From a virus: a stretch of DNA of 64,000 nucleotides. The DNA lies in IMG/VR virus record IMGVR_UViG_3300028800_000090, positions 1 to 64,000 of that record. One strand, 5' to 3'. The translations under genes and the position numbers were made by a program. This document shows positions 23,446 through 35,397 of this stretch, piece by piece. The notes beneath the pieces were generated by a model. It was not told the DNA's origin. It was given only the letters and a program-made list of their open reading frames with translations, and ran no database searches. Every line of letters begins with the position of its first letter. The first letter of the stretch is position 1.

Positions 23446-24165
23446 ATGCCATACGGTGTCATTTATTGCCTCACAAATCTCGCTAATGGAAAGTTCTACA
23501 TCGGGCAGACCTCGCAGGCTCCGACACTGCGGCTGTATCAGCATTTCAAAGATGCCGAGCGCAAAACGGGACCCCTGCAAGCCGCGCTACGAAAATATGG
23601 GAGGGATGGCTTCTCGTTCGAAGTTCTTTCTGAGGCTGATAGTGCTGACGACCTAAACCGACTTGAAACACTCTGGATACTGAGCACGAATGCTAATATC
23701 CGCGGGATCGGATACAACTGCGATAGCGGGGGAACTAGTAAGACGGCAAATGCGGAGACGCGAGAGAAATTGCGAGTAGCTCATTTAGGGAAAAAGCAGG
23801 GGCCTGAACAAATTGCCAAGCGTGTTATGTCTATGAAAGGGAAGAAACGTTCCGGGGTTGCCTTACAAAATCTTGTGAATGGTGCCCGTAAGCGCAGTGC
23901 CCAACTAACCCCAGAGCAGCGCTCCGCAATGGCGGACAGGTTCAGACTTTTCGCAACGGGCAGAGAGCCTCCTAACAAAGGCAAGAAGGGCATTCAGACG
24001 CCATGGAACAAGGGAATTCCGATGTCCGAAGAGATGAAATCTCGTCAGAGTGCCCTGCGTAAAGGAGTGAGTTTGAGTCCTGAGCACAAGGCTCGCATCT
24101 CGGCTGCGATGAAAGGTAAAATGCCGACAGTGAATTTGAGACGCAAAGCAGCTACCGCAGCATAA
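23446..24165 (+). CDS. GIY-YIG homing endonuclease with NUMOD3 repeats
   Basis: 239 residues. The N-terminal GIY-YIG nuclease is seen as GVIYCLTNLANGKFYIGQT (residues about 4-22), followed by a conserved Arg/His-bearing helix (LRLYQHFKDAE) and the Glu of RLETLWI. The C-terminal half carries NUMOD3-type DNA-binding repeats (TREKLRVAHLGKKQ, SPEHKARISAAMKGK). It is AT-richer than its neighbours and sits ten bases after the portal stop with no intron. This is a free-standing homing endonuclease probably targeting the portal region of relatives that lack it. Confidence 0.9.
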   Translation: MPYGVIYCLTNLANGKFYIGQTSQAPTLRLYQHFKDAERKTGPLQAALRKYGRDGFSFEVLSEADSADDLNRLETLWILSTNANIRGIGYNCDSGGTSKTANAETREKLRVAHLGKKQGPEQIAKRVMSMKGKKRSGVALQNLVNGARKRSAQLTPEQRSAMADRFRLFATGREPPNKGKKGIQTPWNKGIPMSEEMKSRQSALRKGVSLSPEHKARISAAMKGKMPTVNLRRKAATAA

Positions 24166-26660: not shown

Positions 26661-27962
26661 ATGTCAGAGCCCAATTATGGCGCAGCCGCACAGCAAACCG
26701 TGCTGATGCTGCAGAAGGTCAACAAAGACGTCCAGCTCGTCGAATCCCTCGACACCGGCCTCGACAAGATGTTTAGCTCGGTCGGTCCCGGCGACGAGAT
26801 CGGCTTGCAGAACTACCGTCTTCCCCTGCAGTTGGAAGTCGGCGGCATCGGCGGGTACTACAACCCGGACGGCGGCACCTATCCCCAGGGAGCTGCAGCC
26901 CAGTACGACCAGATGATCCTGGCGCCTCAGCCCATCATCCTGGCGTTCACCGTGACCGAACTTGCGCGGCGCATCTCGAAGGCCGGCATGGACGTCACCG
27001 TGAAGAACTGGGTGGCGAAGATGATTGCGGACGCCAAGAAGAAGGCTTCGCACTTCCGCAACGCATACCTGCAGGACTACAACAACGGCCTCCTGGCAAC
27101 GGTCGATGCGACCTACGCCGGCGGCGGCTCCACAACCGTCCCCCTGGCCTCGAACCCCTTCGGCGGCCGTCTCATCAACCGCGGCGATCAGTTGCAGGCG
27201 ACCGACGCGAACTTCAACGTCATCGGCACCGTCAACGTGCTCGACATCCAGAAGAACGGAATCGGCACGCCTGACGTCATGACGATCGACATCTGCCCCG
27301 CAGGACTGGCGATCGGCTACCAGTTCATCCCGTTCGGCCTTGCTTCCGGCAACCCCATCGCCATCAATGGACTGAAGTACCTCGTCAGCCCGTCCGTGAC
27401 TGGGGAACTCTGCGGCATCGCGCGCGCGAACTCCTACGTGCAGGCTCCTGCATGGAACGCCAACAACGCCTTCTTGACCAACGCCGGCACGGAGATTTTC
27501 CTTGCTCGCATGGAACAGGCCCTTGGCGCTGACCGCTTCGCTTCCGGCGCGGCCAACAACAAGTGGTACGGGCACCAGGCGCAGTGGACCAGCGTCAAAA
27601 TCCTCGGCTTCGGGAAAATGGTCTATTTCTCGAATGACGGCAAGACGATGGACTTCGACATCGCCGGGTCGACCAAGGGCAAGCGCATGCTGGCAGGTTG
27701 CGAGTACACGTCGGATTCGATGGCGTCGATTGCAGACCTGTACTTCCTCGACAAGAGCACTCTGAAGCGGGTTCGTTACCCCGACTCCGAGAAGTTCCTG
27801 CCCGGGCCGCTCGAGGGCATGTTCTGGCCGCGTATGTCCGGGGGACTCTGGTCCTCGCAGTCGGACATCCTGTACCAGGACTCGACAAATTACACCGTGA
27901 ATAACCCATTTGCAAACGGCGTGATGTCGAATTTGTCTATCCAGCCTGGTTTCTCGAACTAA
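26661..27962 (+). CDS. Major capsid protein (433 aa)
   Basis: ATG 26661 is preceded by GGCAAGGAC. The protein has a capsid-like build. It has a helical N-terminus (LMLQKVNKDVQLVESLDTGL), a G/Y-rich loop (GGIGGYYNPDGGTYPQGA, about residues 73-90), a long spine-like helix around 105-150 (KMIADAKKKASHFRNAYLQD) and a beta-rich core. The family (HK97-fold coat) is inferred from size, order (scaffold then capsid) and composition. The following gap to the minus-strand HNH gene holds a hairpin. This is the most heavily expressed type of gene in such modules. Confidence 0.8.
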   Translation: MSEPNYGAAAQQTVLMLQKVNKDVQLVESLDTGLDKMFSSVGPGDEIGLQNYRLPLQLEVGGIGGYYNPDGGTYPQGAAAQYDQMILAPQPIILAFTVTELARRISKAGMDVTVKNWVAKMIADAKKKASHFRNAYLQDYNNGLLATVDATYAGGGSTTVPLASNPFGGRLINRGDQLQATDANFNVIGTVNVLDIQKNGIGTPDVMTIDICPAGLAIGYQFIPFGLASGNPIAINGLKYLVSPSVTGELCGIARANSYVQAPAWNANNAFLTNAGTEIFLARMEQALGADRFASGAANNKWYGHQAQWTSVKILGFGKMVYFSNDGKTMDFDIAGSTKGKRMLAGCEYTSDSMASIADLYFLDKSTLKRVRYPDSEKFLPGPLEGMFWPRMSGGLWSSQSDILYQDSTNYTVNNPFANGVMSNLSIQPGFSN

Positions 27963-27977
27963 ATCAACAACTTACAG

Positions 27978-28012
27978 TTCATGGGGTGGAGTCAACTCGA
28001 TCCACCCATGAA
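27978..28012. terminator. Hairpin between convergent capsid and HNH genes
   Basis: TTCATGGGGTGGA 27978-27990 pairs with TCCACCCATGAA 28001-28012 (one bulged G). It ends in A-rich/T-rich sequence and overlaps the stop of the minus-strand HNH gene. It can act as a bidirectional terminator or stability element at the 3' end of the capsid mRNA. Confidence 0.5.
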
Positions 28013-28590
28013 TTTCCCACGCAGACGCTCCAAACCGTATGAGTTGAGATTTCGTAGAGCCTCGCGATATCAGTACGCCGCATCCCTTGGGCGTCAAGGT
28101 CTCGGATAGCCCTAGCTCTCTCTCTGGAGAGTTTCATGCTTCGACGTCGTTCATTATTGATTCTCGGGGTGACGGGTTCGTTATGGTCTGGATTGACGCA
28201 TGGAGGCTGGAAACAAAGATGGTCAAGGTCAAGGCCTTCTGGAATTGGCCCTTTAGCTTGCTCGTAGAACCAGCGATGCGCAGGCTGGCTCTTGCCGTCA
28301 CGACTGATTTTCCCGTACCCCATATGGTCGCGGTGCCATTGCCATATCCAGCATGGGGTCTTGTAGCCGCAGTCCTCGACGATGTACTGAGGAGTTTTCG
28401 GTCGAAGGCGATGGTGCTGTATCCACCGAACTGGATACCCAAGCAAAGTATTGTCGCGTTTCGACGTAGATTTCGCCAACGGAGTCTTTTCTCCGCAGTC
28501 GCACCAGCAAAGACCAGAGGGATTCGGCTGGTCGGTTATAGCGCGTTCACGAGTCTTTGCGTAGGGTCCGTACTTGGGTCTCTGTGGCAT
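27979..28590 (-). CDS. HNH homing endonuclease (203 aa)
   Basis: Start chosen at ATG 28590 (minus) because it has a GAGAGGA site; a TTG at 28605 is alternative. The HNH core is LDLDHLCFQPPCVNPDHNEP with the downstream PRINNERR. N-terminal Cys residues (GLCWCDCGEK) and an aromatic CWIWQWHRD precede it. The C-terminus is an HTH-like helix pair (RDLDAQGMRRTDIARLYEIS). It is the only minus-strand gene in the left half, inserted beside the major capsid gene. This is typical of a mobile free-standing homing endonuclease. The target probably lies in the capsid region. Confidence 0.85.
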   Translation of the reverse strand: MPQRPKYGPYAKTRERAITDQPNPSGLCWCDCGEKTPLAKSTSKRDNTLLGYPVRWIQHHRLRPKTPQYIVEDCGYKTPCWIWQWHRDHMGYGKISRDGKSQPAHRWFYEQAKGPIPEGLDLDHLCFQPPCVNPDHNEPVTPRINNERRRSMKLSRERARAIRDLDAQGMRRTDIARLYEISTHTVWSVCVGNSWVDRVDSTP

Positions 28591-28705
28591 CTTTGATCCT
28601 CTCAAGGTAGGACGGCAGCGGAGTCCTTGAGTTCTCCGCCACCTAACGCCGGGTAATTAGTCCGTCGCCCTTTACTGCACCACCAGAATACCAGAGGTTT
28701 TACCG

Positions 28706-31253: not shown

Positions 31254-31625
31254 ATGGCAAAGCTGCTTCTAACCGCTCTCAAACTGGTGCAGGCTCCGGG
31301 GCCGGACAACCGGCTCTACGTCAAGGCTGCAACCGCAGACAACGTGTATGTGACGGGTGGCGTAGCGCTCGACCTCTCCCCGGGCAAGATCACTGACCCG
31401 AATGCGCTGGGCGTTGTAGGCCCGTCGCAGGTTCCGGTCGTGACCCCAGGCGTCTTCACCGAATCGCTCGGCGGGTACAACGCAGCTGTGGTGCCGACTA
31501 CCGGAGGACTCAGCGGCTACAAGCTTCAGTACTGGACTTCCGGAGGCACAGAGCTTGGCGCTGGAGCGTATCCTGCGGCGATCTCGGGCGGAAACCTCGT
31601 GCTTGAAATCCCGTACGAGTCGTAG
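31254..31625 (+). CDS. Minor structural protein (123 aa)
   Basis: ATG 31254 is preceded by AAGGAG. A small beta-rich protein with many Gly/Thr/Pro residues (AATADNVYVTGGVALDLSPG; GLSGYKLQYWTSGGTELGAG), compatible with a capsid decoration or neck component. No known family. It is the last gene before the 697-base gap with the noncoding RNA. Confidence 0.55.
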   Translation: MAKLLLTALKLVQAPGPDNRLYVKAATADNVYVTGGVALDLSPGKITDPNALGVVGPSQVPVVTPGVFTESLGGYNAAVVPTTGGLSGYKLQYWTSGGTELGAGAYPAAISGGNLVLEIPYES

Positions 31626-31660
31626 GGTATACTCGGTTCACCATTCGAGTAAGGCAATTC

Positions 31661-31706
31661 GGCGCATCGCTCGCGGCATGACCGTTGACTGATGCGCCAG
31701 ATTTTT
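31661..31706 (+). terminator. Terminator-like hairpin after the minor structural gene
   Basis: GGCGCATC 31661-31668 pairs with GATGCGCC 31691-31698, followed by AGA and TTTTT. The 22-base loop is long for a terminator, but the stem and U-run are correct. The hairpin overlaps the promoter described next, so it may end the upstream transcript and mark the start of the noncoding RNA. Confidence 0.5.
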
Positions 31707-31714
31707 GCTACATT
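31685..31714 (+). promoter_or_regulatory. Sigma70-type promoter for the structured RNA
   Basis: TTGACT (31685-31690) is a five-of-six -35 match. An 18-base spacer leads to an extended -10, TGC-TACATT (31706-31714). Transcription would start near 31720. It is the only such promoter recognised in the window, placed exactly before a region with many long-range helices and a terminator. Confidence 0.55.
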
Positions 31715-31719
31715 GTTGC

Positions 31720-32207
31720 AAGTCGTGACAAGCGTTCCGTGAGGATATGGCTTGGTTCTCTCTGTAATGGGGGTAGCGACACAAGGTTATACATCGGGCA
31801 GCCGCAGTGGGTGTGCATACCTGCTGACCAACGGTTGAGGTATCTGGGCACAGTAACCCGATAGGGTGCCTGTCTGAGTGAGACGGAACAAGCCCAAGGC
31901 GGGAGGGGCAATTCTCACAACCCGCACTTGATTTTGCAGTGGCAGACATCGGCGCGACATGGGATATAAATGCTCGGGAGACGTGCTCGGGTATCCGCCC
32001 CCACGATGGACGCTTTCACAGGCTTAGGCCACTGCAAGTAACATTCCACCGACAGAGCAGTAGCCGTCCCCCAGGGCCCAGTAAGCCACAGTTTGCAACT
32101 GAGATCGTGCCGTACTCGGGAGTGGCCCAAGGAGAAGTGAGGTACAGGGGTTGCTCGCACATGAGCGCAGCAAAAGGGAGGGGCCTTCGGGCTCCTCCTT
32201 TCATTTT
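31720..32207 (+). ncRNA. Large structured noncoding RNA candidate (about 485 nt)
   Basis: This stretch lies between complete genes and has no credible ORF on either strand. It has its own promoter (31685-31714) and ends in a UUCG terminator (32174-32207). Helices can be read directly. A hairpin is 31812-31816/31848-31852 with 31817-31822/31838-31843. A closing helix is ATCGGG 31793-31798/CCCGAT 31857-31862. Others are 31870-31875/31881-31886, 31899-31903/31921-31925, and 32089-32093/32097-32101. A long-range ten-base perfect helix, TTGCAGTGGC 31934-31943 with GCCACTGCAA 32028-32037, encloses nested helices 31947-31951/32004-32008 and 31962-31966/31992-31996. Size and placement in a phage resemble the ornate GOLLD and ROOL RNAs, but no signature sequence of them was recognised. 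I also saw no tmRNA, RNase P or group I/II intron hallmark. Function unknown. Confidence 0.6.
32174..32207 (+). terminator. Intrinsic terminator of the structured RNA
   Basis: AAGGGAGGGGCC (32174-32185) pairs with GGCTCCTCCTTT (32190-32201) around UUCG, twelve pairs with two G-U, followed by CATTTT. It is strong on the plus strand. The AAAA before the stem gives a weaker U-run on the minus strand, so it may be bidirectional. Confidence 0.85.
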
Positions 32208-32310
32208 GACGTAGCGCGAGTTTCTGTCGCTTCCTCGCGCTGGTGGTGCACCGAAGGAGAGCGACGTCAGGTGCCCAGCACGGCCCCCAGAGATGGGGGC
32301 CTTACCTTTT
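32207..32310 (+). promoter_or_regulatory. Structured leader with terminator before the tail-nozzle gene (attenuator candidate)
   Basis: TGACGT 32207-32212 pairs with ACGTCA 32264-32269, enclosing the seven-base hairpin GCGCGAG 32214-32220/CTCGCGC 32234-32240. A second terminator follows: GGCCCCC 32282-32288 with GGGGGCC 32295-32301, then TTACCTTTT. The U-run ends one base before the GAGGGTG ribosome site (32311-32317) of the nozzle gene. This layout, an upstream structured element and a terminator abutting the start, looks like a cis-acting attenuator or riboregulator. No ligand-binding motif is recognised. Confidence 0.5.
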
Positions 32311-32322
32311 GAGGGTGAACGA

Positions 32323-35300
32323 TTGGCCAACTTTGCAGGGCAGCCCAGCATCTTTTCGAGATTCCTGGGCTACATGGACGAGGACGACCCGACCAATCTT
32401 CCCTCCGGGGTAGCCTCGCTTGCCCGCAATACCGACTTCACGTACACCTCCGCCAAGACCCGCGCGGGCGTGAACCTCACCATGCAGGGCGTCAACAAAA
32501 GCCCCATCACCGGCTTGTTCGGTCTCGTCTACACTCCCCAGACCGATGCGCCTGCGGACGTGATGTTCCAGTTGCCAACCATCTTCGACAAGACTGGAAC
32601 ATTGCAGTACGAGTCCCCACTGGGCACGGGCCGGATGAATCGCTACCCACTGACCTCCCTGTTCACTCCCCCAGCAAACGCTCATGCGCTTGGGTCACAG
32701 GCCTACAACCGGCTCTACGCTTCATTTTCAAATCTGATCAATCCACTCGCCCGCTGCGGAGTGATCGACCTCAAGACCAAGAACGTTGACCCCTACGGGC
32801 AGAAGCCTTTCGGGTGGGCATGGATTACGAATACGCAGTGCCTGGTCGGGGAGATGGCAACCCCGTCGGAGATTCAGAACGGCTCAACCGTCTCAGTCGG
32901 AAACGGGCACACCTACCGCTGCATCGTCGCCGGGACCACCGGAGCAACCCAACCTATCTGGCCGCTGACTGAAGGCGGGATCGTCGTCGACGGCACGGTG
33001 CACTGGCAGGAACTGACGATGGTTCTCGCCAACCGCATCCCCCAACCCGACGCTCCAGCGCTCACGCGCGACCCCGGTGCAGGAGCTTTTGCAGCCGGCC
33101 AGGACGTCTACATCATCATCACGCTCCTGAATCCCCAGGGCGAGACCATCGCCTCGATCGCTTCCGTGCTGGTCGATACCGACCTGAACGATGCGGTCGA
33201 CGTTGCCATTCCTGCGCTGGCGAGCTTCCCCAGTTGGGTGCAGGGACTGGTTGCTCCGTACGAAGTCACCGGCGCCAACGTCTACGAGATGGATGTGGCG
33301 ACCGGTGCAGAGCCTCCGCCGCTGACCGAGTACCAGCGGGTTGCGGGCAGCCCCTTTGCGCTTGGGGCAACCTTAGTCGTCACCGATACCGCAACTTCCG
33401 GCATCTTCCCCCCGACCCGCAACAGCGCGCGCATCACGCCGGGCATGATTCCAAACCCCGTAGTTGCTCCGGTGCTCACGCGGGATGCTTTGGGAGGCGC
33501 TTTCCCCGCCGGCCGCGACGTGTGGGTGCGGCAGACGTACACGAATGCGACAGGGGAAACGCTCCTCGGGCCTTCGAACTCCATCATCGACACCCAGGCC
33601 AACGATGCGGTGCAGGTGACAGTCCAAGGGCTGACGGGCTACACTCTCACCGGGGTAAACCTCTATGAGGCCGATGTCGCTACCGGAGAAGTGGAGCCGG
33701 ATCCAACTCAGTATGCACTTGTGGGCTCTTTCCAGCCAGGCGCAACCGCAACGATCACTGCCTCGGCTTCGGGGCCACCTGCACCCATTACGAATACGAC
33801 TGGGACGGGCGGCAACATTGTTGCTGACACGGAGATGGGTGGGCTAAATGACACTCAGGGATACCGATACGCTGTCTGTTCCTTCCAAAACCGCAACGGC
33901 TCAAACTCTGGCATCACTTCGGGTTCGGTTATCCAGTACATCGTCGACGAAGACGGTTGGGAGCTTGCTGTCTTCAATGTCGCTGTCGGCCCCCTCAACA
34001 TATCCAAACGGCTCATCGGCTTTGCTGTCGCAGACGGAGTGCCAGCCGGACCCTTCGGTTACATCAGTCAGTCTCAAATATCAGACGGTATTCAGGTGCT
34101 TGCCAGCGTCATCAACGATAACGTCACGACGCAAACGGTAGTCAACTTCACCGACGATCAACTCCTAGCGGCCATCGCCGCCGGCGACCAGCTCACCAGC
34201 TATTTCGACACCATCTGGCCTTTGCCGTGCGTCGACCTCTACTACTCCCCCTCGACCAACCGATTCTTCCAGACCGGGATGCCGGGGTTTGCTTCCAGCC
34301 ACTTTGTCTCGCAGGCAGGGGACGCAGAGACGTACCAGGGTTCGACTTGTGACATCCAGGTAGGGCAGGATGACGGCGAGCGCTGCATCTGCGTCCGAGA
34401 GTTCACCAACGGAACCATTTTCTCGCTGCGGGAGCGCTCGGGCTTCATCATCACTCCAAGTTCGGCGAACCCGATTCTCTGGAACGTGCAGAGGCAGTGG
34501 TCAAAGGTTGGCCCATGCGGTCCGCGGGCGGTCGACGTCGCCGGGAACTTCCTCATCTTTGTGCACCGTTCGGGTATCTATCGATACGAGCAGGGCCAGC
34601 CGGAACTGCTTACGAAGGAAATTCCCTACTTCTGGCAGACGATCAACTGGGCGGCGCAGCAGACCATTTGGCTGGAGATCGATGAGGAGAAGCGCATCGT
34701 GCGTTGCGGGTTGCCGGTGAACGGCAGTGCGGTGCCTAACGTCGAACTGACCATCTCCTATGTCGAAGGGTGGGCGTATCCCATTCATTTCTCGACCTAT
34801 TCGGGCAAGATGATCGCGGTGGACGCCTGCCGCAAGATCAGCATCAACGACATCGCGGCGAACTGCGCCGGGCGGATTGAACGGGCTTTGCCGCCTCCTC
34901 CTGATCCGCCGCAAGGGGTTACAGGCATCGAGCAGACCGGTGGGGACTTCTACCAGTCGCAGTTCGTGTACGGCTCGAGCGCTGCGGACGGGACGGTGCA
35001 GGCCATCACCCCCGGAATCTACTCGGACAATCAGGCTGGGATCGATTGGCACTACCGCACAGTGTCGACGCAGCAGATGCAGGCGCTTTCGAAGTGCGAA
35101 GGGCTGAACCTGAACGCAAGGGGCGAGGGATCGATCAATGCCACTTTCCTCTCAGGCAGGGATATGCTCACCGACTGGACGCCGGGCGCACCAACGACCA
35201 GGGCAGTGAAACTCAGGCCTTTCGACCTCAACCCCGGACAAAGTGCAGGGATTTCAAGGAATTGCGAGTCGAGGGTCAATGAGCACTGGATGTGTGAACT

Positions 35301-35397
35301 GGATAACGGAAAAGTACCCGGAGCATGGTGCGAGCTCAAGACCTTGATCGTCTACACCATCCCGATGTATGGAGCCAGGGACGGAAGTGAAGGATGA
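32323..35397 (+). CDS. Tail nozzle/tube-like protein (about 1024 aa)
   Basis: TTG 32323 is chosen because GAGGGTG lies six bases upstream. The in-frame ATG at 32293 lies inside the terminator hairpin. N-terminal residues (ANFAGQPSIFSRFLGYMDED) begin a tail protein. Residues about 180-235 contain a chitin-binding-like small domain (YRCIVAGTTGATQPIWPLTE). Two tandem copies of a beta domain follow at about 243-365 and 377-485 (APALTRDPGAGAFAAGQDVY and APVLTRDALGGAFPAGRDVW). The C-terminal half has beta-propeller-like segments (VAGNFLIFVHRSGIYRYEQG), as in T7-type gp12 or P22 gp10 nozzles. It probably forms the short tail tube for DNA passage. Confidence 0.7.
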   Translation: MANFAGQPSIFSRFLGYMDEDDPTNLPSGVASLARNTDFTYTSAKTRAGVNLTMQGVNKSPITGLFGLVYTPQTDAPADVMFQLPTIFDKTGTLQYESPLGTGRMNRYPLTSLFTPPANAHALGSQAYNRLYASFSNLINPLARCGVIDLKTKNVDPYGQKPFGWAWITNTQCLVGEMATPSEIQNGSTVSVGNGHTYRCIVAGTTGATQPIWPLTEGGIVVDGTVHWQELTMVLANRIPQPDAPALTRDPGAGAFAAGQDVYIIITLLNPQGETIASIASVLVDTDLNDAVDVAIPALASFPSWVQGLVAPYEVTGANVYEMDVATGAEPPPLTEYQRVAGSPFALGATLVVTDTATSGIFPPTRNSARITPGMIPNPVVAPVLTRDALGGAFPAGRDVWVRQTYTNATGETLLGPSNSIIDTQANDAVQVTVQGLTGYTLTGVNLYEADVATGEVEPDPTQYALVGSFQPGATATITASASGPPAPITNTTGTGGNIVADTEMGGLNDTQGYRYAVCSFQNRNGSNSGITSGSVIQYIVDEDGWELAVFNVAVGPLNISKRLIGFAVADGVPAGPFGYISQSQISDGIQVLASVINDNVTTQTVVNFTDDQLLAAIAAGDQLTSYFDTIWPLPCVDLYYSPSTNRFFQTGMPGFASSHFVSQAGDAETYQGSTCDIQVGQDDGERCICVREFTNGTIFSLRERSGFIITPSSANPILWNVQRQWSKVGPCGPRAVDVAGNFLIFVHRSGIYRYEQGQPELLTKEIPYFWQTINWAAQQTIWLEIDEEKRIVRCGLPVNGSAVPNVELTISYVEGWAYPIHFSTYSGKMIAVDACRKISINDIAANCAGRIERALPPPPDPPQGVTGIEQTGGDFYQSQFVYGSSAADGTVQAITPGIYSDNQAGIDWHYRTVSTQQMQALSKCEGLNLNARGEGSINATFLSGRDMLTDWTPGAPTTRAVKLRPFDLNPGQSAGISRNCESRVNEHWMCELDNGKVPGAWCELKTLIVYTIPMYGARDGSEG

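Follow-up and report, generated by a model that had tools for sequence, protein, structure and literature searches.

The locus analysed here raises a simple question: does a stretch of several hundred nucleotides without genes, located between two late genes of a phage, encode an RNA of its own, and if so, which part of it is under selection? The stretch in question (positions 31626-32207) lies in a window of 64 kb, i.e. the whole segment of DNA that was analysed, out of a virus record of 66,186 bases, and the genes around it encode late proteins that are all oriented in one direction. In the first-pass annotation it was interpreted as a large structured noncoding RNA equipped with a promoter and a terminator of its own, possibly representing a new class of phage RNA.

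The gene-free stretch and its neighbourhood

The absence of genes proved to be real: codon-usage scores stay negative in each of the six frames between about 31600 and 32350, and the longest low-coding stretch in the window is 31591-32190, while the other ones reach 330-510 nt. The gene-free interval extends further, to 32322, and includes the known RNA CyVA-1 and a second terminator-like hairpin, both of which had previously been missed. The downstream gene is given as 32293-35397 in the list of ORFs, but its start is most likely the TTG codon at 32323. The region comprises the following features:

31254-31625, plus strand: upstream late gene, 123 aa, with synteny kept in relatives (tblastn)
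31685-31714, plus strand: predicted sigma70-type promoter with an extended -10 element (TTGACT-18-TGcTACATT) and a predicted start at about 31721 (consensus scan)
32174-32207, plus strand: intrinsic terminator with a 12-bp stem, a UUCG loop and a broken U tract (from the sequence)
32208-32284, plus strand: CyVA-1 RNA (RF02965), with loop-loop pairing GUCGCUUC / GAA...GCGAC (cmscan)
32282-32301, plus strand: second terminator-like hairpin of 20 nt and 8 pairs, which shares bases with the 3' end of CyVA-1 (terminator scan)
32323-35397, plus strand: downstream late gene, about 1024 aa from the TTG codon (relatives' loci found by tblastn)

None of the ORFs within the stretch matched Pfam, and ARAGORN predicted neither tRNA nor tmRNA here, the window being devoid of tRNA genes. 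A cmscan search of 31500-32400 against Rfam 15 at E<=5 revealed no large-RNA family, with CyVA-1 as the sole known family in the region; the earlier statement that no known signature is present thus holds for 31626-32207 but overlooks the RNA immediately downstream. A resemblance to RNase P motifs, noted by eye, was dropped, as the order of the motifs is scrambled and Rfam gave no hit.

Both transcription signals proposed earlier were found. The extended -10 promoter is one of only two TG-extended sites of such score on both strands of the 64 kb. The twelve-pair UUCG terminator is present as well, with a weak U tract, and it was not listed by the automated terminator pattern because CA interrupts the T run. 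As nearly identical hairpins are found in genomes of Acidobacteriota, it resembles a terminator of the host type.

Relatives of the downstream gene were found at about 30 loci in IMG/VR (37-58% identity; some of them are repeats of the same contig) and in two GTDB contigs, one binned as Acidobacteria and the other as Proteobacteria. Among the cultured phages of INPHARED neither this late protein nor the 433-aa protein encoded at 26661 had a match. Considering this split between the two phyla and the lack of a cultured match, the host of this virus of soil bacteria is probably an acidobacterium, albeit not with certainty. Two free-standing genes for homing-type endonucleases, of the HNH and GIY-YIG type, are also present among the late genes (window 27979-28605, minus strand, and 23446-24165, plus strand, respectively).

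A homologous 3' domain in a second phage

Comparison of the stretch with all fetched CyVA-1 loci yielded a single match, in a contig of 5074 bases referred to here as L127 (IMGVR 3300014160_000252). The similarity covers window positions 32037-32169 and amounts to 83% identity over 133 nt (blastn E 3e-30; nhmmer 7e-21), whereas the 5' part of about 320 nt could be aligned to L127 neither by blastn nor by nhmmer. The stretch can accordingly be divided into the following parts:

31715-32036, plus strand: variable 5' region of the noncoding RNA, with no coding signal, unalignable to L127, fold z -0.28
32037-32171, plus strand: conserved 3' domain of the noncoding RNA, about 135 nt, matching L127:4666-4534 (minus strand)
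32085-32089, plus strand: 5' strand of a covarying helix, GCCAC (CCUAC in L127), pairing with 32122-32126
32099-32119, plus strand: hairpin CUGAG...CUCGG inside the covarying helix, present in both phages, with a single pair changed from U-G to C-G
32122-32126, plus strand: 3' strand of the covarying helix, GUGGC (GUAGG in L127)

In L127 a copy of CyVA-1 is followed by the homologous domain, by a terminator directly after it, by a gene for a protein of 264 aa and by the gene for the terminase large subunit, which is 39-42% identical to that of the window. Four tRNA genes (Thr, Pro, Ala, Ser) are located downstream of the terminase gene, at L127 1396-1904 on the minus strand. The position of CyVA-1 differs, as it is upstream of the domain in L127 and downstream of it in the window, hence the architecture of the unit is not conserved. 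A cmscan search of L127 4470-5074 at E<=5 matched no Rfam family.

The substitutions between the two phages do not follow the pattern of a protein. The 23 mismatches are distributed as 9, 6 and 8 over the codon positions, and in each of the six frames 13-16 of the 16-19 altered codons change the residue; the even distribution and the excess of nonsynonymous changes in all frames therefore indicate that the 3' domain is not protein-coding. We conclude that there is no protein gene across the interval on either strand, given that the six frames are free of a coding trace, Pfam is unmatched and the L127 homologue exhibits this pattern. Antisense ORFs common to the window and L127 (EQPLYLTSPWATPEYGTISVA-like) were rejected too, since nonsynonymous changes far outnumber synonymous ones.

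The 5-bp helix 32085-32089/32122-32126 retains pairing through two double compensatory changes, which is matched by just 0.2% of column shuffles (p = 0.002, for two sequences). Covariation is thus found for one helix, in an alignment of two sequences. The conservation of a noncoding block at 83% identity in phages whose terminases are only about 40% identical suggests either strong constraint or recent exchange.

Folding of the stretch

The first-pass annotation described a large RNA of at least ten helices. Folding energy does not support this description: the fold of 31721-32207 is no better than that of shuffled sequences (MFE z -0.2), 31721-32170 has an MFE z of +1.2, most sub-windows also fold like shuffles, and covariation supports a single helix. 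The 3' domain on its own exhibits no unusual stability either (z +1.5 in the window and +0.4 in L127), neither strand being thermodynamically structured. The 589-nt unit of L127, whose 5' side is cut by the end of the contig, does fold better than its shuffles as a whole, with a z of -3.8, and of -2.8 without the terminator.

The most prominent helix proposed earlier was a perfect long-range pairing of ten bases:

31934-31943, plus strand: 5' strand of the 10-bp helix, TTGCAGTGGC (from the sequence)
32028-32037, plus strand: 3' strand of the 10-bp helix, GCCACTGCAA, immediately ahead of the conserved domain (from the sequence)

The pairing exists, but it does not attest to structure beyond chance, as a perfect helix of at least 10 bp occurs in 10% of dinucleotide shuffles; with the 3' strand fixed, p = 0.003. 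Its pairing probability is about 0 in the whole RNA and about 1 only in a short local fold. Conservation of this helix was rejected, for its positional counterpart in L127 (a 7-bp helix) is no better than chance (p 0.77), and a pattern search for it gave two matches without further similarity, which were taken as chance.

Distribution among related phages

The gap between the two late genes measures 697 nt in the window (31626-32322); where a relative has the upstream gene in full, it ranges from 0 to about 220 nt. About two dozen related phages share the gene order and lack the insert at this site, and searches of the related records did not recover the DNA of the stretch. Most relatives with the same terminase lack the RNA with the 3' domain.

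A covariance model gave convincing matches only to the window and L127 among 35 phage records; weak matches in G007, G011, G015 and G019 were rejected because they lie inside coding ORFs or overlap them. An exhaustive search with this model beside the other copies of CyVA-1, with filters off, reached a best E of 0.12. Patterns derived from the core of the 3' domain retrieved only L127 and two chance matches. BLAST of 297 Acidobacteriota genomes returned mostly terminator-like and other short matches, while the covariance model found no match in 396 Acidobacteriota genomes, a set that held no positive control. No convincing match to the stretch was obtained in INPHARED or PLSDB.

The adjacent CyVA-1 RNA

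CyVA-1 is the best-supported structured RNA at this locus. In the window it begins directly after the terminator, scores 43.0 bits in cmscan (gathering cut-off 41.4, E 2.2e-6) and possesses both hairpins and the conserved loop sequences UUUCUGUCGCUUC and CGAAGGAGAGCGACGUCA. Among 24 related records, CyVA-1 exceeds the cut-off in two and falls short of it in a further four at E under 1e-7, in other places of the genome. An intrinsic terminator directly upstream of CyVA-1 is seen in L105/L108, L110, L123 and the window, which are of the same lineage.

A first sequence pattern for CyVA-1 was discarded, as all of its 31 matches look like chance within coding sequences. A two-loop pattern, on the other hand, identified CyVA-1-like elements at 36 phage loci in IMG/VR; it allows a spacing of 14-24, and every match has 17-19 with complementary stems flanking. 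Rfam confirmed most of the 20 pattern loci that were tested. In the alignment of 34 sequences the helices of the hairpins are 86-92% paired, and base pairing between the two hairpin loops, the first with the second, forms a pseudoknot (columns 25-29/60-64, 99.4% paired), with two-sided changes in four of the five loop-loop pairs. The consensus of this pairing is GYYGY-UUC with GAA-GNNGA-RCRRC (window 32208-32284; L103-L138; L083-L088; L099, L100), and the Rfam structure line does not include it. The pattern fixes UUC/GAA and the Y/R classes, which limits the evidence of covariation at those positions; unpaired C-A combinations are permitted by it and occur in no match, and the pattern-independent sequences L086, L099 and L100 contribute further types of pairs. 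CyVA-1, a little-studied Rfam family, is therefore common in phage contigs, and its covarying pseudoknot is missing from its model.

In L116, L137, L109 and L112 promoter-like sequences (e.g. TTGTCA with TATAAT) lie upstream of CyVA-1 and reach to within a few bases of its first stem, which suggests that CyVA-1 may be a free-standing sRNA.

Interpretation of the stretch

The stretch is noncoding, it has a homologous 3' domain in L127, one covarying helix, and promoter and terminator signals, and it is an insertion with respect to its kin. A noncoding RNA with its own signals is supported by the L127 homologue, the non-protein substitutions and the helix with two compensatory changes, and judging from the sequences we are probably dealing with a genuine, new phage RNA with a conserved 3' domain, of which two members have been found. 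That it represents a new class, as suggested earlier, is possible, with two sequences as its basis.

We consider it fairly probable that the locus is a gene for a trans-acting noncoding RNA of about 490 nt, with a selected 3' domain and a variable 5' scaffold, gained with CyVA-1 or beside it. Transcription would start from the promoter at 31685-31714 and stop at the terminator of 32174-32207; as this terminator stands between the RNA and the following gene, which could be reached only by read-through, the RNA would be a free one that acts in trans and not a leader. The functional portion would be the 3' domain (32037-32171), where selection may act on sequence and tertiary contacts more than on stable nested helices; conservation of sequence combined with weak nested helices suggests binding to a protein, the ribosome or another RNA, or else folding via tertiary contacts. 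The 5' part of about 320 nt would be a fast-changing scaffold, and the whole may have been inserted as a cassette between two late genes, together with the CyVA-1 gene or next to it.

Other explanations agree with part of these data. The conserved 135 bp might be an element acting at the level of DNA or of the transcript end (a binding site, a recombination or packaging signal, a site of RNA processing), with the rest as filler and without any functional trans-acting RNA. Conservation of sequence without thermodynamic structure on either strand, the lack of conservation in the 5' part and the location upstream of the terminase genes in L127 would suit such an element, but the compensatory helix, the promoter upstream and the terminator found directly behind the domain in each of the two phages are signs of a transcript, which makes this reading rather unlikely. 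A decayed protein gene or random intergenic sequence would explain why the window shows no excess of folding; it is very unlikely, however, as it leaves no coding trace in six frames and no Pfam match for any ORF, and a noncoding block of 133 nt that is 83% identical in a phage with an only about 40% identical terminase speaks against it.

A cis-acting leader, in which the stretch, CyVA-1 and the overlapping hairpin attenuate transcription into the downstream late gene, could be proposed since the 3' end of CyVA-1 overlaps the hairpin 32282-32301 just before that gene and CyVA-1 lies between late genes in close relatives. We regard it as quite unlikely, as a strong terminator already closes the noncoding RNA ahead of CyVA-1, and CyVA-1 adjoins unrelated genes in different phages, several of which have a promoter-like sequence just ahead of it, in line with a free-standing sRNA. 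The gene of pRNA, an RNA of phage phi29, is located close to packaging or structural genes, and our stretch has a similar position, with head and packaging genes around it in the window and terminase genes immediately downstream in L127. An RNA that works with the packaging motor or the capsid is nevertheless most improbable here, because the stretch is absent from most relatives with the same terminase, differs from phi29 pRNA in size and location, and has no Rfam match to a phage packaging RNA.

Relationship to known large phage RNAs

To our knowledge, the functions of GOLLD and ROOL are not known, and few independent classes of large phage RNAs are available for comparison. A homo-oligomeric nanocage is a feature of GOLLD. 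GOLLD, a large noncoding RNA carried by phages and often found near tRNA islands, is conserved at its 3' side and variable at its 5' side, and ROOL is a large RNA of phages and prophages, with an example of 659 nt (PMC12286853). The likeness of our stretch to these RNAs, pointed out in the first-pass annotation, does not extend to membership, as their Rfam models are unmatched at E<=5 both in window 31500-32400 and in L127 4470-5074. With GOLLD it shares the layout alone, i.e. a conserved 3' part (133 nt, 83%) and an unalignable 5' part, and L127 also carries its four tRNA genes; it differs in its shorter length, in the lack of an evident ornate fold, in the absence of tRNA genes from the window and in having no Rfam match. 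ROOL is of similar length, but no extensive fold is evident in the stretch and Rfam gives no match at E<=5. CyVA-1 adjoins the stretch in the window and its homologue in L127, but it is a separate RNA of 77 nt, unrelated in sequence and outside the 490-nt stretch.

A more far-reaching proposal, which we consider unlikely, is that the two members represent a new class of large phage RNA without sequence relationship to either GOLLD or ROOL. Its conserved 3' module would be combined with an exchangeable 5' sequence (CyVA-1 is within the same gene-free region in L127), and it would work as an RNA-based assembly or RNP when hosts of the Acidobacteria type are in the late phase of infection. Another class with such a 3' module would reveal whether the combination of a conserved 3' part with a free 5' part is a common design.

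Terminases of related phages

Two kinds of unusual terminase genes were observed among the relatives. In G002:C1:5476-8181 (minus strand) and G021:C1:24003-26729 (plus strand) the large subunit is interrupted, at one and the same position, by about 1.1 kb of inserted in-frame sequence, and the frame remains open (931-939 aa), as expected from an intein. In G004:C1:11616-13160 (minus strand) and G003:C1:15142-16728 (plus strand) the match to the large subunit contains one internal TAG and one internal TGA, which may be due to sequencing error or to recoding.
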